Assembly (NCBI GenBank): GCA_014871385.1 | Contig: CM026422.1 | Span: 15,758,127-15,822,126 of the forward strand | Source of the DNA: Ceratodon purpureus | Lineage: Eukaryota > Streptophyta > Bryopsida > Pseudoditrichales > Ditrichaceae | Length of the DNA: 64,000 nucleotides | Direction of reading: 5' to 3' | In this document: piece by piece, positions 3,387 through 26,849 of the stretch | How the letters are laid out: each line of letters opens with the position of its first letter | Position numbering within the stretch: position 1 is the stretch's first letter | Program-made: the position numbers and the translations under genes | The notes under the pieces: model-generated | What the model was told of the DNA's origin: nothing | What the model saw: only the letters and a program-made list of their open reading frames with translations | The model's database searches: none

Positions 3387-3415
3387 GCCATGAGCGTACT
3401 TTTTACGCTCATGGC
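3387..3415. repeat. Perfect 12-bp stem hairpin
   Basis: gccatgagcgta, then the 5-base loop ctttt, then tacgctcatggc: an exact inverted repeat. It sits in a patch of repeated words such as catgagc and gctcatggc. A related patch with several gctcatggctcatg units lies at 31598-31650. No terminator-like U-tract context or coding neighbour explains it. Confidence 0.7.
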
Positions 3416-3862
3416 TCATGAAATTTATTTATTTATAGTAAGTACGACCTAATGAAAAATTGCATGAGTGATGACTGAAAACTTGCTCCGAATGATTTTC
3501 ATCCAAAAATTCAAGGGTCAGGATTCCAAGTGTACAGATAAAAGGTATTAGGTCTGAATATCTAGGATATAAAATAAGATACATAGATTATAAATGGCTT
3601 ACAAAAAATAAGAAGGTACATAGATTATAAGAGGCTAACAGTAAATAAGGAGATATATAGATAATATAAGGCTCACAAAAAACTGTGAAGGATGTTTATT
3701 TAATTGGCACAAATCCAATCAAATCCAAACTACTTGCCAATTAATACTAGAATGGAGAATGAAACATACGCATCATTCTCTAAGACATTCTATCACTATA
3801 CTTATAGCGGTAAGGCATCCTTAGAGTACTCTCAAGAAAAAGTTACTCAGAAAAAAAAATCA

Positions 3863-6800
3863 TTAGATCTCCCCTGAACACCTGTCTAAAAGCATGCCAA
3901 CTTCATTGAATGTCCAAGCTGGACGGTGAATGAACTTATCGTCCAACGTACATCCCATGTATCGCTGTAGAAGACAGTAGAGGTGCTTGCAAAGGATCCA
4001 CTTTTTCTGCCCACGACCAAGGGCTGTGGTCTTCATAGTAATAAAATCAAGGCACGTACAGGCAGGAAAATCTCCAATGGTCACCTCATAAAGTTGATTC
4101 TTGGCAATGGAACCAGGAGTGTGGATAGTGTAAACTACTCCATATCCTGGATACGGAACCTTCACATATTTTACCACAGAGCAGTCGGTGGTAATTGAAT
4201 TGACAAACTTGGCAACATGCTCAGGTGAAGGTTCAGAGACATTTTTGAATTTCTTACCATCTCTCATAGTGGGACGGTAATCTCCTGATGCCTTTGGGGG
4301 TCTTGGACCATCAACAGGCTCAGATGGAGCGTAGATAGGATTGCTCCAATGAAAGGCATCAGTAGACTTTCCTTTTTCCGTCATTGGCGGATGAACATCT
4401 TGCTTCTCACCTTCAATCTCCTTAGATGGGGCAAGATGATCTTCTTCCAGTATGAAACCTGCAGATTCCAATCCGTCCACCTCTGCTTGTGACAAATTAG
4501 TCCCAAGCATAATAGGCCAGACCTTGGGAACAATAGGGTAATGCAAAACATACTTGGATCGACTCCCCATAACGCAAGTAGCCAGTTTGGATGGACAAAA
4601 CCAGAACTGCTTCTGCTCTGAATCTTGAGATTTGAATTTCCTTTGAAGGCCAGTAAATGTTGGAGCAGCTGTAGCCCTTCGATACTTTGCCATCACCGCA
4701 TTGCATCTCTTGCCATCGCTGTTATAGCCTCTGCATTGGTCCTTCGATTGAGGTGAAATTCTCTCAATCCGCCAGTCCATGGGATTGTAACAAGGAGTCT
4801 CACGGATTGGAAGGCCGTTGCGAGTTACCACACGTCCTTCTACAGTGCCTTCAGTGACTGAAGGATTGCTTGTGGTGGAATTCTGATTCAACGAGCGGCT
4901 CTGTCCAGGCGTCATATTCTTCCCTAGCTTGGGAAGAGTAAAATTCACCCGGTCATGACGATGGGAATCATCATCATCACCAGGAGCCAAATCTAGCTTC
5001 CTCTTCGCTGAACCAAAAACGTTCTCACCTTCAAGATGAGGCAACCTCGAATTCAAACCGGCCTCACTTGAAATTTTACCAACAATCTGAGCCACTTTTA
5101 CAGGGTTACCCTTACGAGTAGCGAGACGAAGCGCCAACACATTCCGACATGGCCCTTGTCCACCAATACGCCCCTTGAGGAAGTTGTGATACTGTGTTGA
5201 CTGTAATGCGGCTCTGCAGTAGTCATCAAGTGTGGCGTTGTACAGATCCACCATATCATTCCCAGATGCTTGCAGCCATTTGTTATGTACTGTCTCAGAC
5301 AAGTTGCAGGTTGGCATGGATGTCTCTTCCTCAAATGAGAGAAACTGCAATCAAGAATAAAGTTACATATGTTAATATCATAGTATGATAAAGCACTGAT
5401 TATAAAATGGAAAGAATATAAAGGTTAAAATGATGATATAAATATATTATACCGAATTAATTAACAAGCATAGATTCGATTCAAAATAAAGAAGTATAAT
5501 ACTCTGACATATATTCAATAAGAAACGATTTCAGCCTGATGACCAGAAAATATTGCATATTGCGTTAATAATATAATGGGAATATAGACTGCAGAAGAAA
5601 AATGCTGACTGTACAGAACAGTAACGTATACCGAATTCTCAGGGCCACTGTGCAATAGAAAGGGCGTTCTGTGCAGAACTACCCTTTTGGTACCAACGCG
5701 ACTTACAGCTAAGAAATGAGAACATGGCGTTCTGCACAGAACACCCCTAGGGGTCCCAAACATGGAAATTCAAAATGGACGGGAAGAGGGTGTTCTGCAC
5801 CGAACACCCTACTTGATCGAAGATCCCGTCGCCACTTTTATGTGCACATAGCCCACTAACTAAATAAATATAGAAACAAAGTAATTATTTCAAATGACTT
5901 TAGAGTTTCGGACTATTACCTCTGAGATGTGTGAGCCCCATTGATGGTACCGAAAGTGCCAAAAATTAATCCAGTCGTTAAGCTCTTTTAAAGAGCTCTC
6001 AGCGACTGCACCCGATGAAAACCACCAAGCCTTGATGGCTGCCAAAGCGGTATCAGCATCCGATTTGGTGCGAGATTTTCGATAATCTTGGCACAACTTC
6101 AAGTGGACTTGTTGGAGCTCTGGCTTGATAAGTTGTTTGGTGTGACGATCTAACGCCATTCTCCAATGGAATTGGCATGTACGTTCCCTACCTTCCATCG
6201 GCTCTTTCGGGTTCCCTGATCCGAATAAGGTTCTCACAGCATTGAAGTTGGCTTGAGCCGAATCTGCCATGAAGCCTTTAAAGTTCACATTTGTGACCCC
6301 ATGCTTCTCGAGTACGTTCAGCATTGACAACCACATTCGCTCTTGCGCCTCTGTTGTCTCAGACTGCATGTCACAAACTGCTATGGTCATAACCTTGCAA
6401 TAATCGGGGTCATAGACATGGATTCCCAGTGTTGTCCACTCCTTGGTTCTCTTGACGTGGTCAAACATGACCCACTCGTTCTCAAGGTCACCTCCAGGCT
6501 GCATTCTCTTCACAAGACCAACCCCGCTCCCTACGCCACAAGTCGACATCTTGAAAAGATACACTAAGTCACTCCCTTGTCCAGGGAATACACTATCATG
6601 TATATAGTCGTAGGTTGAAGCCTTCTTCAACTTGAGGATGTTGTCAATGAATCCGCCATCGCCACAGAAGCGCCTAGCCTCTGCTATCATATTACGGATG
6701 CTTGGAGTGCTAAGCTTCGCCCATTTGTCAAACACTTGGGATATTTCTGCCTCCGTCAGCTTCTTGCCGTCGCCACTTACATCAACGAGGCCTTTAAGTA

Positions 6801-8208
6801 GAAGCTCTCGACCTACTGCCATCCCTATCGCCGAAACCTTTGCAGCTGGTGTCTTGGCCACTTGGGTCAGAATCTCCTCCTTGATGAGATCTAGAGCCTC
6901 TCTACATTCTCCATTAGCAACAGGGTGATCATGTGTTCCTATGTGAACAGCAGCCCTCGACATGCAAGGATTCTTAGAAACAATATAGAACATCCTGGCC
7001 GTGCACAACTTTAGACAAGCGGGGGCAACTCTACAAAATCGACAAAGGAGAGAACACCTCTTTGGGAGAAGAGGTGTTGGTCCGGGTGTCAAAATCTCGG
7101 GAGTGGATCCCTCCCAGTACATGTCGTTATAGTCGCCATTACGAATTAAATGAGGACAAGTAGGATTCAAACATCGAAGATGTCCTAAACACTTGACGTA
7201 CTTGAATGAGAGTTCTGAATTTCGATCTGAGATGTTGGTTGTGGCCGTCTCCGTCCATGCATGCCCATCACTTCTTCGATCCATACCTTCAAGCAATCCT
7301 GCTCCTCCTCCCTTGACACAAGGCAAAGGCGGCAACTCAAAAATGACATTCCCATTGTATTGAACAGGTAAATACTTCACCTTCAAATGGGAAAATGATG
7401 ACAAATCCGAAGATTTCAAAATACTCTTGGAGGATCCTTGATTACCAAGGGCAACAATCAAGTCATAGATGCTTATTGTTGATGTCTCTGTGGTATCTGC
7501 CACAGAAACTTTTGTAGACTTGATCTCAACAGAAGCAGTCACTTCAATAGATTCCGACTTCACTGGCATGGAGGTCTGAGACTCTACTGTAAAACTAGCA
7601 TCACGTTGTACAGATGCCGAGCATGGTGTGTCAACAGAGAAAGACTCTGAAACTATATTCCGTGATGGCGTCTCAGAAACAACGAAAGAGTCGTCAGCAA
7701 TAGCGTCAGAGGATTCACAGATGCGGTCTTTCTGATCACTTGGTCCATCTGCACTGAAATGAAATGTCTGCATCGTAATGTTATCATCATCATCTTCATC
7801 ATCAGAACTCAACAAGTTGATACTATGCTCGGGAGACTCTTTAACGGTTGGTAACGTCCTCTTGAAATAATCACGATGTCGTCGCTCCAAAGTAGCTATA
7901 GACCGAGGAGTGAGAGTAGATGACTGAGACATATCAAGAGTGGGATAGCCTCCCATGATAGTATAGCTACCTGCACTGAGGGTGTAAACTATACGGCCAT
8001 CTGTAAGGTTAGGTTTCTGATAGATAGTCCTGACAACCATCCCATCCGCTCCAAACTCCTCCTTCTCCACTATTAAAGAGCTCTCATGTAACTGAAACTT
8101 AAGACACAACAATCTCTCATCTACACTGACAAAGCCTGTGTCATCGACATGAAGAATGAAAGGAATCGAAGAAGTCAAAATCCGGAACGATACTACTTGG
8201 CTAGCCAT
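3863..8208 (-). CDS. MULE-type DDE transposase with SWIM zinc finger
   Basis: Two exons, 8208-5920 and 5344-3863, joined in phase 0 (GAG|GTAATA donor, TTGATTGCAG acceptor), give about 1256 aa. DDE residues typical of Mutator-like transposases are visible: D613 (VCDMQSE), D649 (MADSAQ), a C678-x2-H681 motif (CQFHW) after the second Asp, and a probable E780 in NLSETVHNKW, just across the splice. A SWIM zinc finger follows near the C-terminus (C1192-x-C1194 ... C1215-x-H1217). A Cys-rich cluster at about 355-420 and another CxxxxxxGKRC...FCPSKxxTC region in exon 2 look like extra metal-binding DNA-contact modules; about residues 120-260 are acidic or Ser/Thr-rich. The frame is open throughout, so this copy may still be functional. 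The 575-bp intron carries three copies of the 14-bp palindrome. The gene is divergent from the ParB-methyltransferase gene. Superfamily is confident; the exact MULE clade is not. Confidence 0.85.
5345..5919 (-). other. Transposase intron carrying three 14-bp palindromes
   Basis: The intron of the transposase holds palindromes at 5666-5679, 5729-5742 and 5792-5805, spaced exactly 63 bp start to start, plus a half-copy near 5608-5619. The even spacing (six helical turns) could place bound protein on one face of DNA, though a decayed tandem origin is also possible. Confidence 0.75.
5666..5805. promoter_or_regulatory. Three 14-bp palindromes at 63-bp spacing
   Basis: GTTCTGTGCAGAAC at 5666, GTTCTGCACAGAAC at 5729 and GTTCTGCACCGAAC at 5792. 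They belong to the window-wide family described in the findings. Proposed role (inference): sites recognised by the element's own transposase or ParB-methyltransferase protein. Confidence 0.55.
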
Positions 8209-9619
8209 GGTTGTATCAGAAAGAGTGGTATAATCAACTAGAACTGCTCTCTTATGTACTTAGTACCCTCTATGTGCTTAGATCCAATTTAAAACATCTG
8301 GAAACACTTAATTCCATTTGAATACTTACATACTTAGATCCATTTTAGAACATCTAGAATCACTCCCTATTTGGATCTGGCCACGTAAAAGGCAATACGT
8401 GTTACAATACCTTTATCAAAAATATAACTTAAAATGCACAAATCGGCTGGCATATAATTCTGTAGGAGAGTGGTGTTGCGAAAATAGAGCCACTGGGGTT
8501 GTTCTGCACAGAACGGCTGACATATCCAGTCAATGCGGCCCTTGAGTGCAGCTTAAGGCACTGGTGATGTGAACAAGAATGCAAACACTAGTGCCTTTGG
8601 CAAAATGTAAGGTCTCCTGAAATATGGTGTTCTGTACAGAACGACCTTTACTAACATGCGTGATATACAATATGCTACCTCAAAACTCACATGCTTGGAG
8701 AATAAAACACTAGGTAATAAAACGTAACATGGAACGTATCAAATAGGCTAATTTGACAATACTAATTACTACATAAGTCTTGGCTATTCCTAATTCAAAT
8801 TATATATCTTGATGAAATTATTAAGTTCTACTCTAACGACTAGGAAATTGTCATTTCAAAAAATGTAATAACTCATTTTAAATGATATTCATAACGAGAA
8901 CTCACCGATGACGGAAATGTCTTAACGTGACTTACACTTCTCTTGATTCATTCAAATCTGTATTCTTTAGCTTATAATAATTATCATCAACTTCACATAT
9001 TCACTTATTTCAAATTTGATTACTGAAAATCTGAATTCTTTAAGTTGTAATAATTTACATCTACTTATTACATTCAGTACTAACATTTTTCTTTACAATA
9101 ATTAGGGATTCTTTAACTTCTAACAATTTACATCTAAGTAATACATTCACTTATGACAATTTTGATAAATTTATTGAGAATACATAACTTGGCGCACATT
9201 GGTCATAACTAGGCTAATTTGTATTATAGACATGGCAAACTGTGTAATTAAATAGTAATGGCCGAAAGTGCATTAAAATGTTTAGTGCGCCAGCAAGGAT
9301 GAAGACAAAGAAAAGTTGTTACTGTCAGAGAGGGAATCGTTTCAGACGGCTACGTATTATTATTTAATATTGATAGATATCTAAATAGCACTCCAGCCGC
9401 TTTTGCGTTTTAGAACCAATGTCAGAGTATTACAATAGCCTATATGCCCATTACTTTTCAGCGAACACTTAGGATCGAACATGTGACCGATTTTAATTCA
9501 AAGGGATACAATTAGAAGAATCAGACGGTCCTTAGAGGCTGTCAAATCATTATAAAGTTGGCTTAGTCACGTACTAGTCACAATCATTTCAAGAAGTTCT
9601 TGTGATGAGTTCCTGAGTT
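8209..9619. promoter_or_regulatory. Shared intergenic region between divergent transposase and ParB-methyltransferase genes
   Basis: A 1.4-kb, A+T-rich spacer between two start codons facing away from each other, so it should hold both promoters. It contains two palindromes, at 8501-8514 (GTTCTGCACAGAAC) and 8629-8642 (GTTCTGTACAGAAC), near the transposase start. Such sites could allow autoregulation, but this is inference. No coding exon is recognised. Confidence 0.5.
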
Positions 9620-10230
9620 ATGGTTGAGACGAGAGCTGTAAGGAGAGCAAAGGCATTACTAGAGTCTGTGGAGAGATCTTTGTGTGAAGAGAGGACCCTT
9701 CCAAACACGAGTGGACCAGAAAGTGACTACTACTCAAGGACTTACTCGAGACGTGTATTAGCTACCTCGGAGCCACGACATCATCAGGTAACAAACTTTC
9801 ATATGCTCACTTTCCTACATCTAGATTATGCATATAGGAATTTGCTTGTTTCAGTTTTTTACGAACATGACAGTCAATTGCGAATTTGCCTTTTCAGAGT
9901 ACGATGACGCCTGAGACAGCATTTACTTTAAACGTTTCACTGGAGATGTCAATTGAGACAATTATATTAGTTGCGATCACTACTGTTATTGTTACCTATT
10001 TCATGGTCCAGACATGGTACGTTCCCAGAGAGAGACAGAATATAGGACTTGACTCGAGAGTTCAATCAGATGTCTCCTCGGATAATAGCAATGGTAGTGA
10101 TAATGATGAAGATCACTTTAGAGAAGCTGGTGAGGTATGGACTCAAGAGAAATCATATCACATGTACGCAGAATTCTATGAAGGACTGAGCGATGAAGCG
10201 CTTCACAATTTAGAGAATATGATGGAGTAG
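9620..10230 (+). CDS. Alternative model: small single-pass membrane protein (exons 1-2 read separately)
   Basis: If the GAG|GTATGG donor at 10134 is not used, exons 9620-9787 and 9898-10230 encode a 166-residue protein. It would have a basic N-terminus, one hydrophobic span (IILVAITTVIVTYFMV) and an acidic tail ending NLENMME. Splicing from 10134 to 11944 in phase 0 would instead make it the N-terminus of the ParB-methyltransferase. I see no family resemblance. Transcript data would decide; the fused model is slightly preferred because phases agree through all eleven exons. Confidence 0.35.
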
Positions 10231-13200
10231 AATTACATAGGGTAAGAGTAATTACATTATTAGGATCAGCCTATGAATAGATAAACGCAAACGAAGACAT
10301 TTTATTGTAGCTAATTTGAATGCAGTCAGTTCTTTATTTATTGATATTCAGATCCCGGAAGTGGTTCACATTTTCAATCAGCTTGCATTTTCTTCTTGAA
10401 ATGTATGATAGTCCAGAACGTATTCTCACTGTAATACTGCTCAGACTAGACCGACTGGTAATGCGTCGGCTGTTTCTGTGCAAAGTTAATTGGGACAACT
10501 AAGTTGCCATTAATGAATGTAATCCCAACGGAATGGCGCGTTACCATGGTGCACTTTATAGTTAATGCGATCTGGTGGACTTGAGCGCACTTAGGGTTTA
10601 TCAGATTAGGGTACGACCATCTCCAGAAGGTCATTCATATGCAATGGTTTTGTTTGCCTATTCGCATGTGTGTTGATGATATTGTGAGGTGGGTGTGTCT
10701 TTGTCAATGTCGAGTGAATCTCGTTTCTTATTCCACCGTCACAGATGCTTTCTCTCTGATCTGTAAGTTTGTAATGGTCTGTGTAATGCAACCGTAGGTA
10801 CAGATGTGTTTTAGCAGTCTCATCAATCTCATAAGCAGATCAGGATATGTTTGTTGAGACCCAATGGATAGGAACTGTTCGGCACAGAACATGGTGTAGA
10901 TGATGCGAGTTTTTGCAAGTGGTATTGATATACTAAATGTTTAAGTCGATCTTCTAGTTTCTCAACCTGAAGTTCATCATCATATTGCATTTCGAATAGG
11001 TAGAGATTCATAAATACCTGCCCTGTTCTCATGTAGATCTCGCTGTACTTGACCTCAGTCTTTGCTCCAAACGATCACTCTCGCTGTGAATCCAGGGTTC
11101 TATTTATTGAGAGATTAGACTGTTCTGTGCCGAACAAGGGACTCGAAGGTAGATTAGGAGTTCATTAAGTTTATATGATAAATACTATAGGTGCTCAATC
11201 TAGTATAACGACAGTGTAGGTAGTCACTTCGGTTGAATAATATTACTTTAAGATGTCGCCTTGCACATAAACTTAGGAGAGATGACCATGTTCTGATGCG
11301 ACCTTGGGAATTTATATGGGGGTATGTATGACATGCTAATGTCTTGGTCGCAGTCAATTTGGCATTACTGTGCCCAACAGTCATGTGAGAGATAGAAATG
11401 ATAATATGCATTAATTGGCTTCTATTCCGAAAAGTGCTGTTCTGTGCCGAACAGGTCATACCGCGTGGGGTGTTGTCATATGTGTTATAATGTTACATTG
11501 CAATTCTGCGTTCATCCGAGGCATCATAGGATTATACTGTAACCTTCATTTTGGATGTCTGTTATGAGAATTTGCTGTTCTGTGCCGAACAGGGGTTTCT
11601 TTCTGTCTGGAGGGGTTCTGATGCTCCGAGTAGGGTTCTTAAAACAATGTATATCGTTTATAAGGGATTTTTTTTAAATGATGTCCATTTAATCTTTGGA
11701 GCTGAAAAAAGTCGGATTTGAATATTTGTTTACACTTCAGAGTCGTTCTGCACAGAACATGGTATTCTGTAGTGATAAAATGGCCATTTTATCAGTGATT
11801 CTAAGGATACTCGCAATATTATTCAAATTTATTGGAGTGTATGTCGAATTATATTAAATTTATGGGCAGAAAAGTTAGTACTGCGCATTTGTTTTACCTT
11901 GTTCTGTGACGAACGGCTCACTGACTGCTTATATTGTTTTCAGATTGTATGTGAAGACCAGCTCTCTGAGCAAGAGGGGGGCGAGATGGCTGCGGAATTC
12001 GTCCCTGGAGAAATTGGTATGATAACTAATTTAAAGCTCACTTACACAGTAGTCATAGTTAAATGAATTGAATGTATTAGGATAAGTTCTGAACCGAATG
12101 CATGCAGAATGTGAATTGTGATGTTATCTTTTCCTGTTTTCTTTCAGATGTTACAGACATGGACGAGGACCATATCATAGTGGCGCCAACTCAAAGAAGC
12201 ATTAGTATTGATCAAGGTGACAACAATCCGACAGCTGATGATCAAGGTAATATAAATCTTCAATTTCAGCGATGCTTATTTAGATTCATTAGAAACAACA
12301 AATGTGGGTACATTTTAATTATCCTACTCTACTGTGCACTTTACGAACTAACAAGTCTTTATGATCTGCTGTGAGACTAGGTGGCGGCAATGACTCTGAC
12401 ATAGAGGGCGATTGTGATCCTGAGGAAGGTGATCACTGCAATGAGATTAAAGAAGAGGACCTTCAGGAGGATGATGCACCTGATAGAGTCGAGGTTCCAA
12501 ACCGCGACGAGGAGGATGGCGATGCAGAAATTAATGAGGGTGAACCGGAGATGTCTGGACCTGCATTAGATTCTGAGCAAGAGTACGAGCTGATCGTTGC
12601 ACATCGCCAAACCAGGGTGAACTCGATCCAAATTCTAAAGCGCCTCGAGCTGTTTCAAAATGGTAAATCGCACATTGACATACCTCTCTGCAGAATGAGG
12701 AAATTGCAGGTAGTACGCCCAGCGCTTGAGATGGATATCACGAAGATGCAGGCAGAGTTTGTCCATGGCTACCGTGACGGAGCTGCTGCTTTCTATGTCT
12801 CAACAACAAACTTTGAAGGACAAGAGAAGATTGTTACTGCAGAGGAGCGGGCAAAATGGAGTCCATGTTGGCGGAAAAGAGACCAGGAGTTTGAGGATTT
12901 TCTAAAGCAGGACAGTGAACTCTCTTCGCTATCTGACAAGTATTTCTACGTGTGGGATGGTAACCACCGTTTGGTAGCCTGGTATGATTTTATAAAGAAA
13001 TCACACAAGGCTGAATATGATTGGCATTTCAGGGTGAGGTCAATTCTGCTGAAAACACATGAGGACGTGACGGATGTACTAACAGCTATGCACGACATCA
13101 ACAAGTCGAATGAAAATTCCCATGTGAAGCAGAACCAGGTCCATACTATGCACCGAATTCGAAAACTCGGATCTCTTCCTCTTGATCAGTTTCGGGATGT

Positions 13201-16200
13201 GCTTTTACCTGACGAGATGACTGCGGCACTGAAGTCACTTGAACTACCCTTGGATAAAAGGCCGTGGTACCCGGTACCAAGAGCAAGGTTTCTCGAATTC
13301 ATTTACAGCGTAAGCAATACCAGTTGATCCATTATCGTGTATTCTTTGAAACTGAAGTTCAATTATTGTAGACTCACTTTTTCTCTTATGTTTATTGCAG
13401 CAAGAGATCACAGAGGCTGGAGATGAAGGTCAGAGGAAATACGAGGAAGACGTGCCGCGGCGTAGGCGCACGGCAGATGGAAAGCTACAGGCAATAAATG
13501 GAGCAATGGAAGCAAAACGAAAAAGCTTCTCCTCTGCATTTAACAAGTTGTTGTCGATTTCAAATCCCGCAAATGGGAAATTTTTTCTGACCGAGGTAAT
13601 GCTCATTCAAATTATACCATGTTCCAAACTTCTTTGAATTCTCTTAGTTAGACAAATAAAGTGTTCTCATTATACTATGAATGAACTCGTGTTGTAAGGA
13701 ACAAGTGACCCGTGCAAGTCGAAGAATCCAGTCTCAGCTTTTCGACCTAGGGGTGCTCTGAGCCGAACAGGACTTTTAGCATGATGCTGCTTAAACAGCT
13801 ACTAGGCCAATTAGAGGTGTTCTGTGCCGAACACCAGTATATCAATAATACTTAATCAGAGCAATGCTATATTCTTTAAAGCCAATTTGGTTTTTGGCCA
13901 TTAAGTCAATGGAATTAGTATGCGTCATACTAATTCATGCGGGTGTAGTTATATTTGAGCATGTATAATGAACGGTAAAAATTATAAATATTGTTCCCCT
14001 GATGCATGTATCGAGAGATGCCGTTTCAGATGAATTAGAAACGCTGGGTGTTACTTGCTTTTGAAACTAGAATGTTGCTTCTGATTGACTCTTCTTGTCG
14101 TTGATGATGGAATTTCGAGGTCATTGCCACGAGAATATCAATGTTCAGTGCGACCTTTAATGTTCGTTGCGAATATTGTAAATATTGTATAATTTGCTTA
14201 GAATTTTTATTTTGAAAGAACCGTAGATCTTGGAATAGAGGCTGGTAATTTTATCTATCAGAGTTGAGAAAGCTGATGTAAATGCTGGTGCAAAACTGGA
14301 TTAGCACCGAGACTTTAGTGGTCGAGGCCAGGGTGATATTCTGCTCGTTTTTAGAAGAAGCAATCTCGTCTGGCGAAGTGTTGGATTTCCCCCAAGCTCG
14401 GGTTGAGGTGATCTTACATTGGATCGTTGACGCTGGAACATGTGCTAAGGGCAGGCGTACGAGGTGGGATCTCAGTTCTGAAATTGTGTGTTCTGCACCG
14501 AACGACACGTCAGTCAAGCAGTCCTCTACCTAATATGACTTTGAGTCGCAACTGAGCTGCATACTCTAGTGCATTGAGTGACTCATTTCTTTGTTAGAGT
14601 TTAAGGTTGTGAAATCGATTGCAATGATTACTGAGATTACTTGTTAGTGAGTGAATGGATCCCCACATGGGAGCTGTTCGAAGATGAAGCCATGGTCAGG
14701 TAATCGATCCCTAGTCTTGCATCCGTTTGTGTAGAGTCGAACTTGCTCGAGGTGTAGAACCGTTTAATATGCTTACGAGATTTTCTGAGATTTAATCTCC
14801 ACTTTATAATTCTATTTGCTTTTCTTACAAATGTCGATCAGAAATTGTGATAGGCCGTAGATCATCTGATGGTAGAATAACCTGTTCGAGTCTTGAAACT
14901 GAGTTCACTTCGTTTGCTCTCGTAGTGCACTGACTTTTCGTATGATACTTCATTGATTATAATTGGACTGCACATTTGATATGCATCCTGACCTCCTTCA
15001 GTTCCCTGGTTGCTCGTTTCATACTTTCTTTTTAATCTGAAATGGTGTGTTCTGCACCGAACGACTCATCAGTCAAGGTAGGTTCTACGTAGTATGACTT
15101 TGGGTCGCAACTGAGTTGCATACTCGGGTGCATTGAGTGTCTCATTTCTTTGTTAGAGTTTGAAGTCGCGAATTCGATTGCAGTGACTATTGAGATTTCT
15201 TGTTCGTGAGTGAATGGAATAATACGTTTCTTCGCTGTGTTCTTTGTCACAAGATTAAATGATGTCGAGCAAATCAATAGAGCTCAAGTCAGGAGTATGA
15301 CTAATTCATTTTCTGTTATATTATTCAGATTGCCAAGCATTGGTCGACGAACTCAACCCCTGAGATGACAATTGAGAAGTTACAGAACCTGGCTTCTTCC
15401 TGTATACCCTCGACGGAGAAGGAGCAGATTCTTAGAATCTGGAACTCATCAGATGCAAACAGGAAGCTTAAAAAGTTTCCCCTTCATCCGTTCAATGACA
15501 GTACGTTCAACACTTACCTTCATAAATATGTATTCTGGCATATGTTGAAGGTGAAATCCATTGAGTTCTACGCTGATGTTGTTAGTGATTACGCAATCAC
15601 GGATATCAAACCGAGTATAAATTTCGAAGCCTACGTCGCATCGAATCGAGTCAGACAATGGGACTACGCTTTCAACAAGCCGATTCTGAACAAGGAGATT
15701 CAAAAGTCCGCGGAATGGGGAAGCCCGAAGCAGCCACATGGCGAACGTGCTATGAATCGACTCATTTATCGGTGAGTTCTTTCCCTCTACTCGAAATATT
15801 TGTTTGCTATTGGTTATGAAGATGTGACAATTTGCAAGCAGCCATTTCAGGTTCTCTTGATTATGCTAACAGAATTTCGTGTCATGATTGTAGCTACTGG
15901 ACACATGTTCTACAAGCAGAGAAGCTTGTGCCCGAGGCACATCCCTGCTTTGCAAGTTGGCTTGACCTGAATAATGAAGACTGCATGTTTACCGCCGACC
16001 AAGCACAGGATTGGAGTGAGGAACATTTATTCAAGTGCCACTGGTACTTGGAGATGGATCCAAGTGACACTCCTCCGCATGAGCTTGAATTCCGGCGGTC
16101 AGTTGAGCCCTCATTTCAACGCCCGATTGCTGCTGCTAAAGAGAACGAGGAGCATCCGGCACAGCTTGAGGTCGCAGCCGGAAAGGCCTCGAAGGCAAGA

Positions 16201-19200
16201 TCCAGAGGAGGTGCTCTTGCGGGTAAGAAAGCGGCTCCTTCAGGTATAGTATCAGGTGCTAAAGAACCTGCTAAGGGCAACAAACGAGCTAGTGGAGCAG
16301 ACAATGAGCAGGCAGGATCTTCAAAGAAGGGCAGGCATGATATGGATGGTGCACAATCCGAAGCTAGGTCATCCAAATCCCATTCACATGTGACTAGGAG
16401 TATTGGAGGTGGCTATTTGACAACTTTGCGGACCTCTCTTGTCCAACGTGCTCCAGAAGGTGTGAAGTACCATGTCCAAGTAATTAACAGTTCCGTCGGG
16501 GATTTTCTCCAGAGTGAAGCATCAGCGTTTGAAGATTTTGCATTGACGGTACTACTCTCCATGCCCCTGAATTCCAAACCTCTTTAGACATTTACTTCCC
16601 GTCATACATGATCTAACTTTTATCTAACTCTAACAGGCAAAGGAAGAGGAGGAAACATATCTGCGTGGAAAGGCAGGCATGTTCCCAGTAGCAAACCTCG
16701 TCATCATCGACCAACCTTTTGAAACACTTGTTCCTGGTTTTGGAGATAGCATACCCGTGTGGAATTCTCTGGATGGTTCTATCAGGAATTGGTACTCGTC
16801 GCGATTTGAGTTTGCCAATGACTATCTGCACGATGATGGTGCTATCCTCGTTCTCATGCCTACGGGATTGTGTCACGAGCTACAGCATTGGGTTTTAAAA
16901 TACAGACTGAAAATCAAGTGTGAGTGGCAAGTTCATCAGTCAGAGCCCCTTACGCACCCAGCCTATGAGGGCATGATGGTATGTCAGACTCCTACCTTGC
17001 ATACAATCCATATTATGTGCATGTGTTTCATGTGCTTGCAGGCCACTTTGGCAATGACTAGGTCCAATTTATTTTAGTCTTGAACTTTAATGCATTGCCA
17101 CAGTACCGAATCAGAATTTGTGTGGCGAAGACTGCTTGTGAGAGGCCGAAACTTTACGCTTCTCCTCGCATATCATGCTCTTGTCAGAGGTCATTGATTT
17201 AAGGGAGGGTCGCTTGGGGACTATTTAGAAGCTGTTCTGTACAGAACGCCCGTTTCGTTGTGTGTGAGGGTCGAATGGCATAACCGTCGAGAGGCCGTTC
17301 TGTACAGAACGCCGGTTTCTTCCTCACCCTTACAATTTCATTCTAAGTCATCTCTGGCCCTGGTATTTCTCTTTTTCTGCAGTTCTGTTTCGAGGCAGTA
17401 AGAGTTGAGCATGAGGTAGACGAATGTGGCTACAGTACGAATTATTTACTTTCATTACTCCAATGGTGATTTTAATTGAGCCCTGACTACGCAGTAATCT
17501 GCTAGTGGTTCGGAGGTATCATGTGATCCGTTCCATTACATTGGGTATTGTTTTGTTTCGTTACTTCAGTATCTAATGATGGTCCATAGTGCGCGCTTTG
17601 TTAATGAGTTAAGTTAATAGCTCTTAGTTTTTTCGTGTAATTATTTGAGTTGTGACGGAGCGTTGATCGGCTGAGGGAGATTTCTCTATAATTTAATTTT
17701 GTTTTTGGATCGATGCTCTAACAGGCATTTCTGTAGCTCGCCTCTGTGCCGAATTTCACTAATTTGGTGTGCAGTTAGCTTTCTTTATTGTCTTCGAGCG
17801 AGTTCTACTTTAGCGTACGACCTCCTGATGGCCAGGAATTCTCTTCAGTTCCATATCGTTTTTTATTAATAAGCTTCGTGGTCTTCTGTTTTCTTTTACC
17901 GTGCATTTGTTGGAGAGAAGTGACGTCTCTGCTTGGGGGTTTGTGTTCACTATAAATGGGTGATGCATTAAGATCGTGGTAAACCTCACTTGATCATCAT
18001 GTTCATGTCGAGGCTGTGGTATAAGATCGAGAGAGGCTTTTTTTTTTGGTGGGATATAATCTCAGTGTGGGTAGCTTGTCAGCATTGGTAATATTGAGTT
18101 TGAGTCTGCATACCTAAATCGTCACTTTGCAAGTCTGGGCTAGATTTGTATTGCATCTTTAGAGGCAGTGCCACTCTTACAAGCATTTTGGTCTATTCGA
18201 CCTCTCTTGAAAATGTGTGCAGCATTTGAAATTACATTCGCATGAAGCATATCTTGTGTGACATTACCGTCTGTCAATCGGTGTGAAGCTTGGCTTAAGT
18301 CAAGCACTTCCTCTTCTATTGAGTTTAAATGTGACAGTTGAAGTTTTTCCGACCATGTTTTAAACCATTGCTCATGATTGAATAGGATGGTGACGGTGGA
18401 AATGATGTAAACTGACGGTGGACATGTTGTTTGTTTCAGACATTCAATTTCTCGGCGGTCCTTTTAGTCAAAACGGGACGACTCAAGGACAAGCAGTGGG
18501 AGAGATTGCCAATTCCATTTAAGTTCAATGCTGATCCGTTGCTGGCCAATACCGCAGATGATCCGATGAGGTACCTTACACTCACCAACTATGTGGAAAA
18601 ACCGTCCATGGACAAACGCGGGAATCCATGGCGTGGTCCCCATGAGAAGTCCTGTACTTTCTTTCAAATTCTGATTGACATGTGCTCAAACCCAGGAGAC
18701 ATAGTAGTCGATCTGAGTGCCTCTACAGGGGCATCTCTTTTGGCGAGCCGAGCTTCAGGGCGCCATTTTTTTGGCATTGAAGAATTCAGCGACATATACG
18801 ACGCTGTACTCAAGCCGCTTATCCAGCCAGTAGATGCTCAGAAACCGAAGAATCGTCGTGGTATGGAGAGTACCCCTAGCCCTTGAACTTTAGTGTCTAC
18901 CTTTCTCCGTTTTTCTTTGGATTCTGATGGCAACCTTCTCAGATTATGGTCATCCTCGTGGCTCTGAATGTTTAAATACATGGTCACTGTAACACAAATT
19001 ACAGCTACTATATCAGTAAATTTGCAATCCTAATTTATTATCTTTATCTAATGTAGTTGATTTTTCCACTCAACTCACCAGATTTACTCACATTGAATGA
19101 CATTGCTGAGAGGACGCTTGGAATCTCTGTTATTTTGAACTTAGCTCATGAACTTAGCCTCCAACAATTGCCACTGATAAGGACTCTTTGCAAGGTAGCT

Positions 19201-20321
19201 ACTGATAATACAGACACGTCATGTATACAGTCCCTTTGCAGGGGCGACTATTTCCTTCTCGACTTGTACCCTCAAGTGGTGGATGCTTTCAGATTTTGTA
19301 ATCTGAAAGTGGGTTGTCTTGGTCTCTAACTATCATACTGTGACAGCACTAGTCCCGGGTTTACCAGGTTTACTACGTGATAGCATTGGCAGTCTTTCTC
19401 AACAAGTCAGTCACCAGAGGCACCTTGGTTGGCTGCGTACTTCGAAGAGTCGCTCTTACTGTTGATTCTGAAACTTAGTTCTCGGCCCTTGTGACTATGT
19501 CTCATCCCTAGATTTCTGGGCCGTCGTTATTGTCCCCACAATCTGCACATAATGTAGAGTATTTCGGTTTGGGCTTGGCCGTTTCTTCTGTACGTTGGTC
19601 TCTCTTCCACTGTAGAGCGATTTTCATTCTTGACTACATGTTGTCCGTTGCAGTTTAGAAGTTCTTTTGCTGAGTTTACATCTTAGACTGCGAATCCACT
19701 CATCTCTTTGTTCGGCTCGCAGTCTATGGAGAGCTGTGACACTTGTTTGGGTCGGTCTTCCACCACACCTGCCATTCAACTAAACAATTTGCTCAGAAGT
19801 CGTTGTCAGATAAATAATATAACATTAGTTCACCTTAATTTTACAACAGAAATTAGATCATCGAGAATACATGAAAGAGCAGATTCGTACCCGTATACGC
19901 TCCCCGATGTACATCATGTCTGCTCTCGGTAATATTATAATCCATTCACTATATACAAACGAGTTCACCTGAATTAACATCACAAAATACCTTTGGACTT
20001 TTGTGTGAATTCTCTTGATACAATAAATCTAAGTCTTTGACCTTGTCTGCAGGGGTTCGGCCCAGAATGATTCCGTTCTTTGCAGATCCTAATTTTATGA
20101 GAAGTCCTTCACCAACGTTCTCACTTCCTCCCGAGGCCGCAGCACATGCTTCATACCTCGCCCTCCAAGTATCACCGGAAGACCAGGCTGAAGAAATAAA
20201 GCGCCGCCCAAAAGCAAGTATATACGTCGATTCTGAAGCAGTAGAATCCACCTCTGAAGGTGAAAATACCATAGATATCATGAACTCGGACTCTTCTGGA
20301 TATAGTTCATTATCTTCGTAG
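9620..20321 (+). CDS. ParB-like domain fused to beta-class N6/N4 DNA methyltransferase
   Basis: Eleven exons fit with correct GT-AG junctions and matching phases: 9620-9787, 9898-10134, 11944-12016, 12148-12246, 12381-13309, 13401-13595, 15329-15771, 15894-16548, 16637-16978, 18440-18860, 20053-20321; about 1276 aa. Residues 1-135 include a hydrophobic segment (about 75-97); 136-260 are acidic. A ParB-like core follows, with WDGNHRLVAW at about 384-393 and a helical region after it (INKSNEN). A low-complexity basic linker rich in Ala, Lys and Ser precedes the methyltransferase: motif IV as DQPF (958-961), then GPHEKS...NPGDIVVDLSASTGAS (motif I, D1138) and GIEE. Order IV then I marks the beta class. 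Bacterial and phage proteins that join ParB-like and N4/N6 methylase domains are known. Here the gene has introns and a transposase neighbour, so it is probably cargo of a eukaryotic mobile element. DQPF and a weak motif I leave catalytic activity uncertain. The first two exons could be a separate 2-exon gene ending at 10230. Confidence 0.75.
10877..11914. promoter_or_regulatory. Six 14-bp palindromes in intron 2
   Basis: Copies start at 10877 (GTTCGGCACAGAAC), 11122, 11439 and 11577 (each GTTCTGTGCCGAAC), 11745 (GTTCTGCACAGAAC) and 11901 (GTTCTGTGACGAAC). All lie in the 1.8-kb intron between 10134 and 11944 of the ParB-methyltransferase model. Both half-site forms (CAGAAC and CCGAAC) occur. 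Confidence 0.6.
13755..15062. promoter_or_regulatory. Four 14-bp palindromes in intron 6
   Basis: Copies start at 13755 (degenerate GCTCTGAGCCGAAC), 13819 (GTTCTGTGCCGAAC), 14490 and 15049 (both GTTCTGCACCGAAC). The last two sit at the same place in two copies of a 174-bp intronic duplication. Confidence 0.6.
14486..14659 (+). repeat. Intronic direct repeat, copy 1
   Basis: About 174 bp, diverged, repeated at 15045-15218. Both begin gtgttctgcaccgaacgac (the palindrome) and end gtgagtgaatgga, with shared words such as gcattgagtg and ctcatttctttgttagagtt. The duplication carried the palindrome with it. Confidence 0.8.
15045..15218 (+). repeat. Intronic direct repeat, copy 2
   Basis: Second copy of the 174-bp unit at 14486-14659, 559 bp downstream in the same intron. 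Equal length with scattered substitutions suggests an old duplication without indels. Confidence 0.8.
17234..17310. promoter_or_regulatory. Two perfect palindromes in intron 9
   Basis: GTTCTGTACAGAAC at 17234-17247 and again at 17297-17310, 63 bp apart start to start. That is the same spacing as the trio in the transposase intron. Both are perfect inverted repeats. Confidence 0.6.
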
Positions 20322-21002
20322 GCACCTAGTTTATATATATATATATGGAAAACAAGAATACCATCAGGATCAACTTATATTGGGCATGTGTCTATCAACT
20401 AATATCTTAAGTAGCGAAGTCACATATTTATAACTATGTATTCCAATCTTGGTCTTCATTGAAGTTGTACAAATTAATATTTCTAGTAATAGATATACAA
20501 TACAATTAAAATTATAAAAAAAAATGAACCGATACGCTACGCAATCCCAAACGCTAAGCACGGTAAATTTGATTGCTTAAAGTCTCTGCACATTCGAATT
20601 GGTATAACAACCACTTTACATGAGAAAGGCATGAGAGAATTATAAATGAAAAAAAATTACACCTACCAAATAAGACCATGCCAGGAGACTCGGTCATTAC
20701 AATTATGACACATATTCCATTCTGGTACCAAGGACTAGGTTGGGCTCAATTTTTTAAAATTTACTTCGTATACTTACGAATAATTAAAAATACTGATATG
20801 CTGTTTAATACGTGTCCTCATATATATTTATACATGTTATACACAGGACTTTAAATTACTACATATGTATTTATATGTATGTATAAATAGATATATGTAT
20901 TTATATAACATCAATATATATATATATATATATATATATACGTATAAATTTATACAAATATAACTATATTTAGGTATATCTATATTTAATCATTATAAGT
21001 TT

Positions 21003-21066
<64 letters not shown>

Positions 21067-21185
21067 TGTATGTACATACAAAAGTAATTTTAGATATATA
21101 TATAAATATATATTCTTAGATAAATATTTATATGTACAATTGTTGACATATCTTATTCAAGTTATAGACATATGTATATATATCT

Positions 21186-21239
<54 letters not shown>

Positions 21240-21403
21240 CTAAAAACATTTTTAAATTTATACTAATATATATATATTTAAACATATGATTAAACATATG
21301 TTTAATTATATATCTAAATATTTATTTACATGTATATATATATAAAAATTAATTTGACAATATTATATATAAATTAATTTGACAATATTATATATAAATA
21401 TAG

Positions 21404-21448
<45 letters not shown>

Positions 21449-23918
21449 TACATTTATATATATCTATATATATATATTTATCAACACAAATAGATATACA
21501 TATAAATTTATATCTCGTTTATAAATTCAATTTAGATATAAATTTAATTATGTACATATATTGACATATTTAAATAAAGATAATACATATATAGATATCT
21601 AATAAAATATATATATTTCTAATAAAATGTTTAAATTTATATTAAAATACATGTTTAAACATATGTTTAATTATATGTCTTAATATTTTTTTTTTTTGTA
21701 TATATATAAAAAAATAAATAAAGTCAAAAATATATATTAATTAAATCAACTTTATCATATATAAATATAGTTACATTTATATACATATATACATATATAT
21801 ACATTTAGATATATCTATATATGTAGTTATCAATACAAGTAGATATATATAAAAATTGATACCTCGGTTATAAATATAATTTAGATGTAAAAATAAGTAT
21901 ATATATTTATATATCAAATACAAAATTATGGTTATATTTGTAGTTTTAAATTTCTTTATGTAATCATATAGATATAAATTGTTTGATTTTCAATATTTAA
22001 TTTTAAAGGAAAATGAAAGCATGTTTAATTCATAGAGTTTAGAAGTCTATTGGATTATTAAATAATACTTCATTTAAAATTCAAATACTAAATCCATTTA
22101 TTAGCGTTTGAAATCCATAAGAATGATTTGATATTAAGAAATTGTCATAAAGAACCTATTTCGTACCAAACGCCACTCTTTGACCTCAACTTGTTTGTAT
22201 ACATAATTCGTTTTAGGATTTATCTAGTTTAAATCATCTTCCATCCCGTACTCACTTAGTGTATTCCGATTTTCCTATTGTAATCCTCGTTGTAAATGGT
22301 GATGGCGATTGCGCCATACAGGAGCTGTTATTGCTCAACTATCAAATGGAGACCTTTTAAAAATTATATATTATATAACTATTAAAACTTTGTTAAACAA
22401 CGCTTAAACCTCATTATTGATACTTTATTTTAAATTGATATATTTAATCTTGTAATTGCACAAAAACAAGATTTCTGGTGTTTGATTTTTCATTTATATG
22501 ATATTGAATATATATACGCTATTATATCATATTATCATAACAAGACAACTTTTATTATGCAAAATAATATATATATGCATCTGTTTTTATAAATAAATAT
22601 AGAAATAAATATAGCAAATCACATGTTAGGCCCAGAACTATGGTCATCCATGGATCAAAAAAATATTCTTTCAAATCTCAACTCTGCCATTTACATCTCC
22701 AATAGCAACTTAGATAGAACCTTTTAAAGCAAAGTACAGTTATCAGACTTCTAGTCCTTAGTGAATGAAACCATTACTAAAAGAGAAAATCACATACTAT
22801 AAATCATGTTGCGGTTTAATTCTTCTAGGTAATTATGAATAGGAATTTGATTATATGTAAACAAGTAAATAAGAACACATATATATTTAAACTTTAAATA
22901 AAAATAAAAATTACAAAGTTGCATAAAACTATTCAATATTTATCCATTATTTAAATAGATAAAATTATGTAATATAAAATTATATATTAAAACTACTATA
23001 TGTATCTATATTATGTACATATATATACACTTGGAATATTGATATTCAAATATCTAGAATATACATATAAATTATATTGAACATATGTGTTAATTAATTT
23101 ATATATATTTCCATATATATTTTATTAGTTATAAGAAGCATTAGTGATTAAAAATATTATAGATATACTAACATCATGCATTAGCATAACATTACCATAA
23201 GAACACTAGGTAATTCTGCACGGAACATGTGATCACTATGTCATACGATCACCATGTCAAACCATCCGATTCTATACCAATTCATATCATCATCATGCTA
23301 TCGCCATATTGTTGCATCATCTTGGGTTCAGAGGGGTGTTCTCTAAAGAATAGGGGATCAACTAATTATAATCTTACACTTATAAATAAAAATGGTATAA
23401 AGGTATAAAATTATAAACTTTTATACGTATTTAAAGACTCATGTACATATAAATATATAAACACTGATATCTGTACCTTTAAATATATTTAATCTAATTT
23501 AATATAAATTTTATCATGTTTGACCATCATAAAATACTTAAGTTAAATACAAGCAATATTACCTGCGTGGTAATTTAATAATTTATATGTTATTGTTTCG
23601 TAATATTTTGTATTCATATATAAACTCATGCTGCGTTTAATATTTTAAGATGTTTTTTAAAATATTTTAAATTATATGTATACAAATAAATATGAATAAG
23701 AATTTATCTATATATTTAAAACTTAAATAAATTTCAATATAAATATATAGAAAATTCCATAATATTAAATTTATATTAAACATATAAGAATATATACAAT
23801 TTGATAAAAACATTATAATTAATAAATATTTATAGATTTAAACCATCATATGTAAATACTAATATTTAGATATTTTATTCATATATGAATATCGATATAT
23901 ATATAAATATATAAATAT

Positions 23919-23968
<50 letters not shown>

Positions 23969-24240
23969 AAATATACAGTACATATTACTCTTCGTTATTA
24001 AAATATATATGTGTATCATATGTATGGCTATATATACGAACGCACATACATGTATCTAGAATTTGTTAAATACTTGAAAGAGTAGCGTATCAAGTGTAAT
24101 AATCACTGTTCTTTTATAGCATTCTCATCCACCTAGTAATTTATCAATAGTAATAAATTATTTTATTGAATTAAAATAACTTTACATTCAATATTTATGG
24201 CAATATGAATGTTAGATTTTCTATACCATCTATACGTGAG
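20322..24240. repeat. A+T-rich desert with (TA)n microsatellites
   Basis: About 4 kb of very high A+T content without a credible gene. Long TA tracts lie at about 20914-20940, 21009-21068, 21190-21238, 21408-21441 and 23920-23965, with many tatatacatatata interruptions. A single degenerate palindrome (ATTCTGCACGGAAC) lies at 23213-23226. It directly follows the end of the ParB-methyltransferase gene. Function, if any, cannot be read from sequence. Confidence 0.85.
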
Positions 24241-24341
24241 AGAAAAAGAAACTACCACTACACAGTACCGTGGAATGTCCATCATCGTATATTTGGTATT
24301 TTATGTCTAAATTAAGAAGTATAGTAGGGCTTGAAATAGGT

Positions 24342-24645
24342 GTTCTGGACGAACAACAGTATTTAGCTTTTCTGAAACCTAAAAATAACCAAGCATTGTC
24401 ACCGGTTAAGAAGAAACGGAAATCGATACCCTTGGTGATTTATTCCACGGCAAGTGGTGTTCTGTGCAGAACACTCTTTTTGGAGTTAGCCGGAATCCCC
24501 GTTCGGCACAGAACGAGGAAGAAGAGAGGATATGGGGGTGGGGGGGGGGGGGGTTGGTGTGGGGGCGCGTAAGAGGTCGAGTAAAACTAGTTCTGTACAG
24601 AACACGTTTTATTATAAGTCCATTATTGCCCGTTCGGCACAGAAC
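24342..24645. promoter_or_regulatory. Palindrome cluster beside a poly-G tract
   Basis: Copies at 24342-24354 (13 bp, GTTCTGGACGAAC), 24469-24482 (GTTCTGTGCAGAAC), 24501-24514 (GTTCGGCACAGAAC), 24590-24603 (GTTCTGTACAGAAC) and 24632-24645 (GTTCGGCACAGAAC). A G-rich run (13 or more consecutive G) lies between at about 24535-24570. This is the densest group of the family in the window. Confidence 0.6.
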
Positions 24646-24913
24646 GAGGTTCTTTCCAAGCAGGGTGGATAATTAATACGCTTCTAGAATGATTATGTTA
24701 CGTATTTTGCTGCATGCATCTGATGCGAATTATGTGCTCCATTGGTGTATTCGCAACACCAATAAGGGCGGTGTTCATAACTGCTGGTGGGGGTTCATCT
24801 ACAGCTAGGCCTGAATCCAGAACAGAACTTTCCTAAAAGCACATAATTCCTAAAGACATCTGCACATTCCTAAATGCTGTAGTCAGGTGCTAAGTCATCC
24901 ATGAAATTCCATG

Positions 24914-25122
24914 ACCAAATTAACCAGAAAAGACTCCGTCGAGTTCCTTCCTTTTCAAGTTGAGAAGCAGTTTTTAAATGACTTTGGTGCAAACGGAGTA
25001 AATCGATCATCATGTATAACCGTCTCCAGGACCCGTTCTGCACAGAACGACTAAAAGGCAAGGAATTTCATAAAGTATGTCGCACAGTAACAGTCTAGGA
25101 GTCTAGTGTAAAGCATGATTTA
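24914..25122 (+). repeat. 209-bp direct repeat with palindrome, copy 1
   Basis: Near-identical to 26641-26849: it starts accaaattaaccagaaaag, contains GTTCTGCACAGAAC at 25035-25048 and ends aagcatgattta. Only a few substitutions separate the copies, so the duplication looks recent. Confidence 0.9.
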
Positions 25123-26640
25123 TTCTCTTGACAAGCTTTCATACAACAAAATCCTTTTGCATTGTGAAGAATCCTTGGATCAAAAGACATACATTATAAA
25201 CGCTATATATCAAATTTGCGAGTCAATGAGAAAGGGCTCGAAGCACTCCATTGATTGAAGTTGATACAAGCTTCCTTTGCGATGCGACACTGCCATTGCA
25301 TCAGCGCAACACGTCTTTGTTTTCCATCCCTTCCAGGTATAGCGCAACATCCAAGATTATTTCCTACTCTTTGCAAGCATATTCATAAATTTTTTCAACT
25401 TGATTTCCTTAAGTGGTGGAAGACGCTAAGTGTTAGCTTAGAGTTTAGTGTGGCGGAACTGGGAGCAAGAAATAATTCGTTAAGTAGCGTAGGGATCCAG
25501 TGAGGAAGTCTTCTAGCGGTTGCAGTGTAATCGTTGCTTGAATTTGACACTATCAGTGAAATTGTTGCATTGCATTTCAATGATTCCTCCATGTGAGCGA
25601 TCATATTTAGTAATTTGGCTGACATTGTTGCTGCAGAAGGTCTCTCATAGCTAGGGCTAAGAGTTGTTTCAACATTCTAATTACAAGAGGTGGATTGAGT
25701 AAAATATACCAAAACTAGGAGGCGGATGATTTTAAATAGATTCGTACTCAAATGTACGTGAATTGGAGAATGTTTTTACCATGACTTAGCGCACTTGATC
25801 AAAATTGCAGTGCTTTTCTGCGAATTGCAGATACCAAATACCTCTCCTGCTTCAATCTCTCACTACGATCAACATAGTTGAGATGCTACTGTTCTCTTTC
25901 GGTAAATTAAAACCAATGGTTTCTTGAAAATCAAAAATGAGTCGGGTAGTCAAGGTACACACATCCATCGCTTAACTCTCTAGTCAAGTTGCAACCAACC
26001 ATCATCTCAACTTTGTTTGAAGTAAATTTCGTCGCAGTAATTGTAGAACCCACATATTGCAACACATCAGGCAAAATAAATATGGCATTTCTTCACGGGG
26101 GCGAAGAGTCATTGATTTCCATCCAACCTCAACTACAAACACTGTCCAACCAGAAGAAAATCGACAGAAAATTTAACCTGCCAATATATGTGCTTTCATG
26201 TGACTTCATAAATAACCATCGAACGGAGTGTAAAGTCTCTCAAACAAAGACTCATACTTTTCGAGTAGTGCCACGCGAAGGGGCCATTTAATTATAAGTT
26301 GATACAATGATCACATCCAAGTCTGACATAGTTCAGCAAATCAATAATTCAATCAAACAAGAAGTTAACCAAATAAATCGACGAACAACCCTACAGGTAT
26401 CTGAATTGCAGCGTACAACTTGTGGTTACAAAATGCATTGTAATATGACCCTTCCGAACGACAAAACGCAAGCAGTTGAGAAGCGTACACAGAGGCACAC
26501 AGATTTCATTAGGACAATATTCTTCTCCGAGAGAAACGTATGTAAGGTGTTGAGAGAAACAAGCGTTGGAAAGCGATGTGCAAGTTCAAAACTAAAAGCA
26601 AATGGTGCCAAGTCGGTATAGGTTGCATAAAAGCTCATGG

Positions 26641-26849
26641 ACCAAATTAACCAGAAAAGACTCCGTCGAGTTCCTTCCTTTTCAGGTTGAGAAGCAGTTT
26701 TTATATGTCTTTGGTGCAAACGGAGTAAATCGATCATCATGTATAACCGTCTCCAGGACCCGTTCTGCACAGAACGACTAGAAGGCAAGGAATTTCATAA
26801 AATATGTCGCACAGTAACAGTCTAGGAGTCTAGTGTAAAGCATGATTTA
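26641..26849 (+). repeat. 209-bp direct repeat with palindrome, copy 2
   Basis: Second copy, 1727 bp downstream of the first; same length, palindrome at 26762-26775. This is the rightmost palindrome in the window and may mark the right side of the element's territory. Confidence 0.9.

Follow-up and report, generated by a model that had tools for sequence, protein, structure and literature searches.

In the moss Ceratodon purpureus, a short palindrome is repeated many times within one transposon and accompanies relatives of that transposon's genes across the genome. We analyzed a stretch of 64,000 nucleotides (assembly GCA_014871385.1, contig CM026422.1, positions 15,758,127 to 15,822,126; hereafter the window), in which all 21 exact copies of the 14-bp palindrome GTTCKGNNCMGAAC lie inside a single 28.3-kb DNA transposon at 3347-31665. 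Besides its transposase gene, the element carries a second gene, which encodes a methyltransferase-like protein. With moderate confidence, we take the palindromes to be recognition sites of the element's own protein, most likely that of the second gene, which would mark the element's DNA and counter its silencing.

Distribution of the palindrome in the window and the genome

The palindrome, written GTTC[T/G]G-NN-C[A/C]GAAC in the original prediction, was searched as the exact pattern GTTCKGNNCMGAAC. All 21 matches in the window fall within 5666-26775, whereas dinucleotide shuffles predict 0.01, which bears out the earlier assertion that such a palindrome should be rare by chance. When up to two mismatches were allowed, 35 matches were found, 29 of them within 5666-26775, versus 5.9 expected for the whole window; the six outside this interval correspond to the chance level. 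The exact sites reside in introns, in the space between the genes, and in spacers, and none was detected in 1-5.6 or 27-64 kb, as had been claimed. The original prediction listed approximately 24 copies under 25 start positions. All 21 exact sites are among them, but start 24469 was a misprint for 24459. The other four are degenerate (11901 and 13755 with one mismatch, 23213 with two, and 24342, by eye one base short), and three sites with one mismatch each (12086, 20055, and 22625) were overlooked.

Exact search places three sites (5666, 5729, and 5792; 5666-5805) in 63-bp steps within a transposase intron and two (8501 and 8629; 8501-8642) between the two divergent genes. The first intron of the second gene contains five exact sites (10877, 11122, 11439, 11577, and 11745) and the degenerate site 11901 (10877-11914). 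A degenerate intron site follows at 12086-12099, and a further intron combines site 13755 with the exact site 13819 (13755-13832) and two more exact sites at 14490-14503 and 15049-15062. The last intron harbors two sites, 17234 and 17297 (17234-17310), which are again 63 bp apart. Four sites at 24459, 24501, 24590, and 24632 (24459-24645) form two pairs, each with a distance of 42 bp. The exact sites at 25035-25048 and 26762-26775 belong to the two copies of a duplicated segment of ~250 bp (24872-25122 and 26636 onward), which is apparently single in the 98% copy of the element on C1. The degenerate site at 23213-23226 lies in an A+T-rich region. A 4-kb stretch at 20300-24300 inside the element has a G+C content of ~22% and contains two degenerate sites (22625 and 23213) but no exact one; the greater part can be aligned with the C1 copy.

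The sites had been described as confined to the transposase/methylase region. The clustering is real, but its true bound is one transposon, whose ends the earlier reader missed. The left end was derived from an alignment with the 98% C1 copy (starting at 3346), and the right end from a 9-bp target site duplication and imperfect inverted ends. The duplication, TCTGATTTC, is found at 3338-3346 and 31666-31674 on the forward strand. Its length lies within the 8-11 bp given for Mutator-like elements (MULEs) in the excerpt of PMC6446971, and judged by this length, the element is MULE-like.

To place the window in its genomic context, 362 Mb were scanned with GTTCKGNNCMGAAC and, as a control, with the reversed pattern. 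We obtained 1173 exact matches versus 76 for the control. Among the 50 matches listed (C1, 0-19.94 Mb), 45 have a close relative of the transposase or the second gene no more than 25 kb away, three are in one relic copy with a transposase remnant, and two are isolated. Both the enrichment and the nearness to homologues, which the original prediction had proposed as checks, were recovered, and a motif equally dense away from these genes is not what the listed matches revealed. A gene-less cluster at C1:15543466-15546616 was considered as a non-autonomous element; this idea was dropped because the cluster proved to be a relic that retains a transposase remnant.

Conservation, spacing, and the words of sister clades

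Conservation was analyzed in 31 close-family records, comprising the element part of the window, four 20-kb copies, and 26 copies of ~4 kb. Coding-matched DNA accounts for 35% of their length and holds 0 of the 212 exact sites. In all three copy pairs compared, the motif was more identical than its flanks, with 98 versus 83.8% in a pair with 7 of the 21 sites alignable (synonymous divergence, dS, 0.32-0.86), 96.7 versus 89% in a pair with 15 of 21 alignable and two sites lost, and 99.5 versus 96.7% in another pair with 15 of 21 alignable. The central dinucleotide is YR in 209 of the 212 sites, and the commonest form, GTTCTGTGCCGAAC or its complement, accounts for 90. Within the clade of the window element (clade I, see below), the central dinucleotide differs between groups.

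The sites are also spaced at fixed distances, which is well supported, although the analysis was post hoc in that 42 and 63 bp were first seen in the window and the genome match list. Genome-wide, 98 site pairs are 24-54 bp apart and 132 are 55-85 bp apart, versus 0 in the control for each range. Among 50 pairs listed for the shorter range, 33 are separated by exactly 42 bp, 14 by 53 bp (one family), and three by other distances. The listed pairs of the longer range are, judged by eye, mostly at 63-65 and 74-78 bp, composite 84s aside. The triple in the transposase intron is spaced at 63/63 in two of the copies; in a third, the steps are 42/42. A common helical phase of the sites is likely. 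A Rayleigh test at 10.5 bp across 30 intervening-sequence families judged by eye gave p 2e-6 with a best period of 10.75, and a looser count (60 pairs) yielded R 0.507 at 10.5 bp. A strict phasing claim was weakened once homology clustering had been applied.

A tree of second-gene proteins resolved three clades of 31, 3, and 3 rows with supports of 98/96, 100/99, and 100/100. Membership refers to the fetched loci, which are L043, L046, and L047 (25 kb) for clade II and L044, L045, and L048 for clade III. No window motif was found in the fetched 25 kb of clade II, nor in the 53 kb from both clades II and III combined. L043 contains its own dispersed word, CCGAGCASACTTG, and L046 and L047 contain related words in tandem arrays of 3-3.9 kb. 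Genome-wide, CCGAGCASACTTG occurs 494 times versus 5 in the control. Among 100 matches listed, 95 lie within 20 kb of a far-subfamily gene (23 compared, C1-C3), and 12 of these 23 genes have a nearby CCGAGCASACTTG among the matches listed. The 19 close-family genes on C1-C3 have no listed match within 10 kb, and 226 kb of close-family DNA (~16 kb counted twice) contain no copy. In L043 and L047, two pairs each of such sites are oriented toward each other at a distance of 15 bp, with more such pairs genome-wide. Together they make up a longer palindrome of the CAAGTGTGCTCGG-NN-CCGAGCASASTTG type, and clades I and II therefore share the core GNTCKG-NN-CMGANC. In clade III, L044 and L045 carry arrays of ~200-bp units containing CCCTACTGTC-GTCACA-GACAGTAGGG, and L048 contains a possibly coding 180-bp array. 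Different but related words beside different versions of the protein suggest that the element labels its DNA for recognition by that protein, perhaps as a means of escaping host silencing.

The arrays of 3-3.9 kb are situated directly upstream of the clade II/III genes, at 1-3882 in L044, 6-3903 in L045, 60-3941 in L046, and 900-3855 in L047, with units of 200, 203, 171, and 150 bp, respectively.

The second gene and explanations for the sites

The second gene (9620-18886, forward strand) was delineated from a gene model and the annotated relatives P0001 and P0002. Its nine exons (9620-9787, 11944-12016, 12148-12246, 12381-13309, 13401-13595, 15329-15771, 15894-16548, 16637-16978, and 18440-18886) encode a protein of 1116 amino acids with DGNHR (ParB/DndB-like) and N6_N4 methyltransferase-like domains. 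P0001 is 60% identical to this product, aligned over its length. A protein search, which scored only ~8000 candidates sharing most words, recovered only two relatives, both Ceratodon proteins. The C-terminal part matches PF01555 (N6/N4 DNA methylase), with E 4.9e-7 in P0001, which is the sole Pfam family above the cut-off among the second-gene relatives. The usual catalytic motifs of such methyltransferases are DPPY and DPFAGSG. The clade I proteins have DQPF, DTPF, or DQPY as motif IV and DLSASTG or DLAASTG as motif I; those of clade III have DVPE (L044, L045) and EWSAGTG (L044, L045) or DWKAGTG (L048). Both the catalytic motif IV and the S-adenosylmethionine motif I are degenerate in every copy read, and judged from these residues, the protein is probably non-catalytic. 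Purifying selection acts on the exons tested, with nonsynonymous to synonymous ratios (dN/dS) of 0.02-0.18 in the 14 comparisons, out of 23, that had a computable dS.

The original prediction also called a parS-like role, with the ParB domain, attractive but unproven. Scans of Pfam, NCBIfam, and PHROGs revealed no ParB family, and the best Pfam match was DndB with E 0.07, below the cut-off. The label goes back to the DGNHR motif and this sub-threshold match and is weak, so that these scans do not support ParB membership. Palindromic sites do lie near the gene, and a protein that works somewhat like ParB is possible.

We propose that the palindromes serve a transposon-encoded DNA-binding protein, most likely the 1116-residue product. 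Several molecules of it would occupy the many intron and spacer sites and mark the DNA of the family, and the paired sites (42 and 63 bp) would probably be bound on one face of the helix. By analogy with the VANC proteins of VANDAL elements, the bound protein may remove or block host silencing. The preference for the second protein over the transposase, the cooperative binding, and the anti-silencing effect are all argued from sequence and analogy. As to the choice of protein, the terminal regions of the element (3347-3420 and 31595-31665) contain no palindrome sites. The left one has an imperfect inverted repeat of ~22 bp and four copies of CATGAGC/GCTCATG, and the right one has six, so that 10 of the 14 heptamer copies in the element are located in these two regions. 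The heptamers are likely transposase sites. Termini with their own heptamer and without the palindrome fit an action of the transposase there and leave the internal sites to another protein. The earlier interpretation as a whole is partly supported. Its proposal of binding sites for an element protein draws support from the genome-wide association with the element, the absence from exons, the conservation above the flanks, the regular spacing, and the different, though related, word in a sister clade of the protein.

A number of observations weigh against this proposal. Of 30 fetched family loci of ~4 kb, 24 have 4-10 sites. The other six, five group-D copies (76-78%) and L022, have at most one exact site each. 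In group D, 11-12 sites per locus persist, mostly with one or two mismatches, among which G to A and C to T at the paired positions 11 and 4 are the most frequent, and yet the ParB-like exon still looks constrained in the two group-D copies tested. A broken transposase does not explain the site loss, because the site-rich copies L011, L017, L019, L020, and L027-L029 also bear stops; this explanation was dropped. Helical phasing is strong only if the intervening-sequence families count as independent, since 17 unique distances gave p 0.02, and ten strict clusters favored 9.5 bp (p 0.004) over 10.5 bp (p 0.013). Eight of the 50 close pairs listed are near no listed gene copy. In L043, the whole symmetric core (at most one mismatch) is present at only two sites, the rest being half sites, and clade III (L044, L045, L048) lacks the core. 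Neither are the words strictly exclusive. GTTCGGGCCCGAAC fits the window pattern, yet stands 9-11 kb from five far-subfamily genes, including that of L046, as triplets in 53-bp steps with the extension CACACTTG (C1:24153049, C3:384634, C3:17243191, C4:4944638, and C4:9289391); it contributes 10 of the 50 close pairs listed. The co-variation of word and protein fails to single out the second protein because the transposase also differs between the subfamilies. Finally, a structure prediction for P0001 based on eight alignment rows reached a mean predicted local distance difference test (pLDDT) score of only 37.6.

Alternatively, an active N4-cytosine or N6-adenine methyltransferase might write a self mark on the palindrome, like a captured bacterial orphan methylase, which we consider unlikely. 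PF01555 is matched across the whole domain in P0001, the closest relatives of known structure are adenine methyltransferases (DpnA, E 0.001), a palindrome suits the marking of both strands, and purifying selection on the methyltransferase exons is seen where computable. Modification, which the original prediction had put on a par with binding, is nevertheless the less likely of the two, because the catalytic motifs are degenerate in each copy read, including a clade I motif I without the usual glycine. Marking would require neither the spacing rules nor the density of the sites, and 14 bp is long for a site of such methyltransferases. A role of the sites in transposase binding, or in the replication, partition, or co-localization of copies in a parS-like manner, also seems rather improbable. 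Three sites in the transposase intron, two in the shared upstream region, and the DGNHR motif of the ParB/DndB type would fit, and ParB relatives such as VirB oppose silencing from palindromic sites. An excerpt of the VirB paper speaks of offsetting silencing. However, the termini hold a different heptamer and no palindromes, the sites are scattered across 21 kb, and all ParB families scored below threshold.

Noncoding, palindromic, conserved sites are typical for dimeric host factors, and the element might have co-opted sites of a host transcription or chromatin factor as enhancers. Such sites should then occur at host genes, but only two of the 50 listed matches lie outside family copies, which is at or below the prediction from the control rate (76 per genome), and the sister clade has a different word. 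We regard this explanation as highly improbable. Hardly any weight falls on a passive interspersed or tandem repeat that spread by duplication and has no function. Many intron sites are indeed in segments of weak homology, 106 close pairs reduce to 10 clusters, and the sites at 25035 and 26762 represent one duplicated segment. Yet the motif is kept above its flanks, exons are free of sites, and equal spacing occurs with unrelated intervening DNA, on which grounds pure duplication was rejected. Moreover, sites are retained in C1a, L027, L030, and L034, which are too diverged from the window copy for dS.

Recognition by the element's own protein has its closest counterpart in the VANDAL elements of Arabidopsis. 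Excerpts of two studies (Hosaka 2017, PMC5735166; Sasaki 2023, PMC10398659) describe VANC proteins that bind short noncoding motifs, with density-dependent localization, family-specific motifs, and tandem repeats. The moss element resembles VANDAL in being MULE-like with a 9-bp duplication (for VANDAL, excerpt of PMC6446971) and one or more extra genes, and in a short motif that is concentrated in introns and spacers and infrequent elsewhere. In both systems, motifs differ between related families, with targets often in tandem repeats, and the dense, family-specific noncoding motif that characterizes the VANDAL type is present. In contrast, the VANC21 motif YAGTATTAY is, in these excerpts, non-palindromic and of one orientation, the moss motif being palindromic. 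The moss protein is methyltransferase-like, the host is a moss, and the sites are regularly spaced, while the VANC passages mention no spacing rule. Because a conserved, probably non-catalytic methyltransferase-like protein combined with a dense, family-specific noncoding motif corresponds to the way VANC acts on VANDAL elements, we propose a sequence-specific anti-silencing function. More tentatively, a captured bacterial-type methyltransferase may have turned into a sequence-specific anti-silencing protein acting on helix-phased palindromes, with clades and words co-diversifying, as an independent invention of the VANC strategy. As part of this tentative scenario, the address codes, distinct but built on one core, would be GTTCKG-YR-CMGAAC for clade I, CAAGTSTGNTCGG-NN-CCGANCASACTTG for clade II, and arrays with other palindromes for clade III.

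Maize Spm TnpA is likewise an element protein that acts on many short sites and counters methylation, but its sites are subterminal and also serve transposition. The bdelloid rotifer N4CMT is a host gene, unlike the moss transposon gene. According to the part of PMC8885841 consulted, it too is a eukaryotic case of a methyltransferase domain of the bacterial N4/N6 type. Cytosine methyltransferases have been captured by retrotransposons (de Mendoza 2018, PMC5890265, excerpt), which are also mobile elements carrying a DNA methyltransferase gene; these enzymes are of the C5 type, in contrast to the degenerate N6/N4-type domain and own address word of the moss DNA transposon. Fungal DNA transposons encoding TET/JBP (PMC12730594) similarly have a gene likely acting on DNA modification, but remove marks by oxidation, and the beginning of the abstract mentions no dispersed address motif. 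In the open-licence literature, judged by titles and abstract beginnings, VANC is the only transposon self-addressing anti-silencing system we found, with Spm TnpA as a partial parallel, and nothing was found there on the moss element or on a methyltransferase-type transposon anti-silencing protein. If our proposal is true, a second self-addressing system, built on a bacterial-type protein and on a palindromic code with regular spacing, would suggest a general route by which transposons escape silencing. It would also provide matched protein/motif pairs ready to be tested in moss, where gene targeting is practical, and new parts for sequence-specific epigenome editing.

The transposase and further features of the element

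The transposase gene is represented by two large exons (open frames) on the reverse strand, the first at 5890-8208 and the second at 3863-5350. A Pfam scan of these exons gave no match above the cut-off; DDE-like residues and, in the second exon, a SWIM-like CxC..CxH were identified by eye only. The protein search, limited as described above, returned 12 transposase relatives. Across copies of the element, relatives of the transposase and of the second gene lie, by eye, mostly a few kb apart, and in at least three copies ~22-24 kb apart. A third open frame of the element at 27102-28445 (reverse strand) has a coiled coil and RING-like cysteines by eye, with no Pfam match above the cut-off. On C6, which we take to be the sex chromosome of Ceratodon purpureus, three matches of equal score at 19183788, 19188758, and 19193728 are spaced by 4970 bp and probably represent a tandem triplication of a broken copy.

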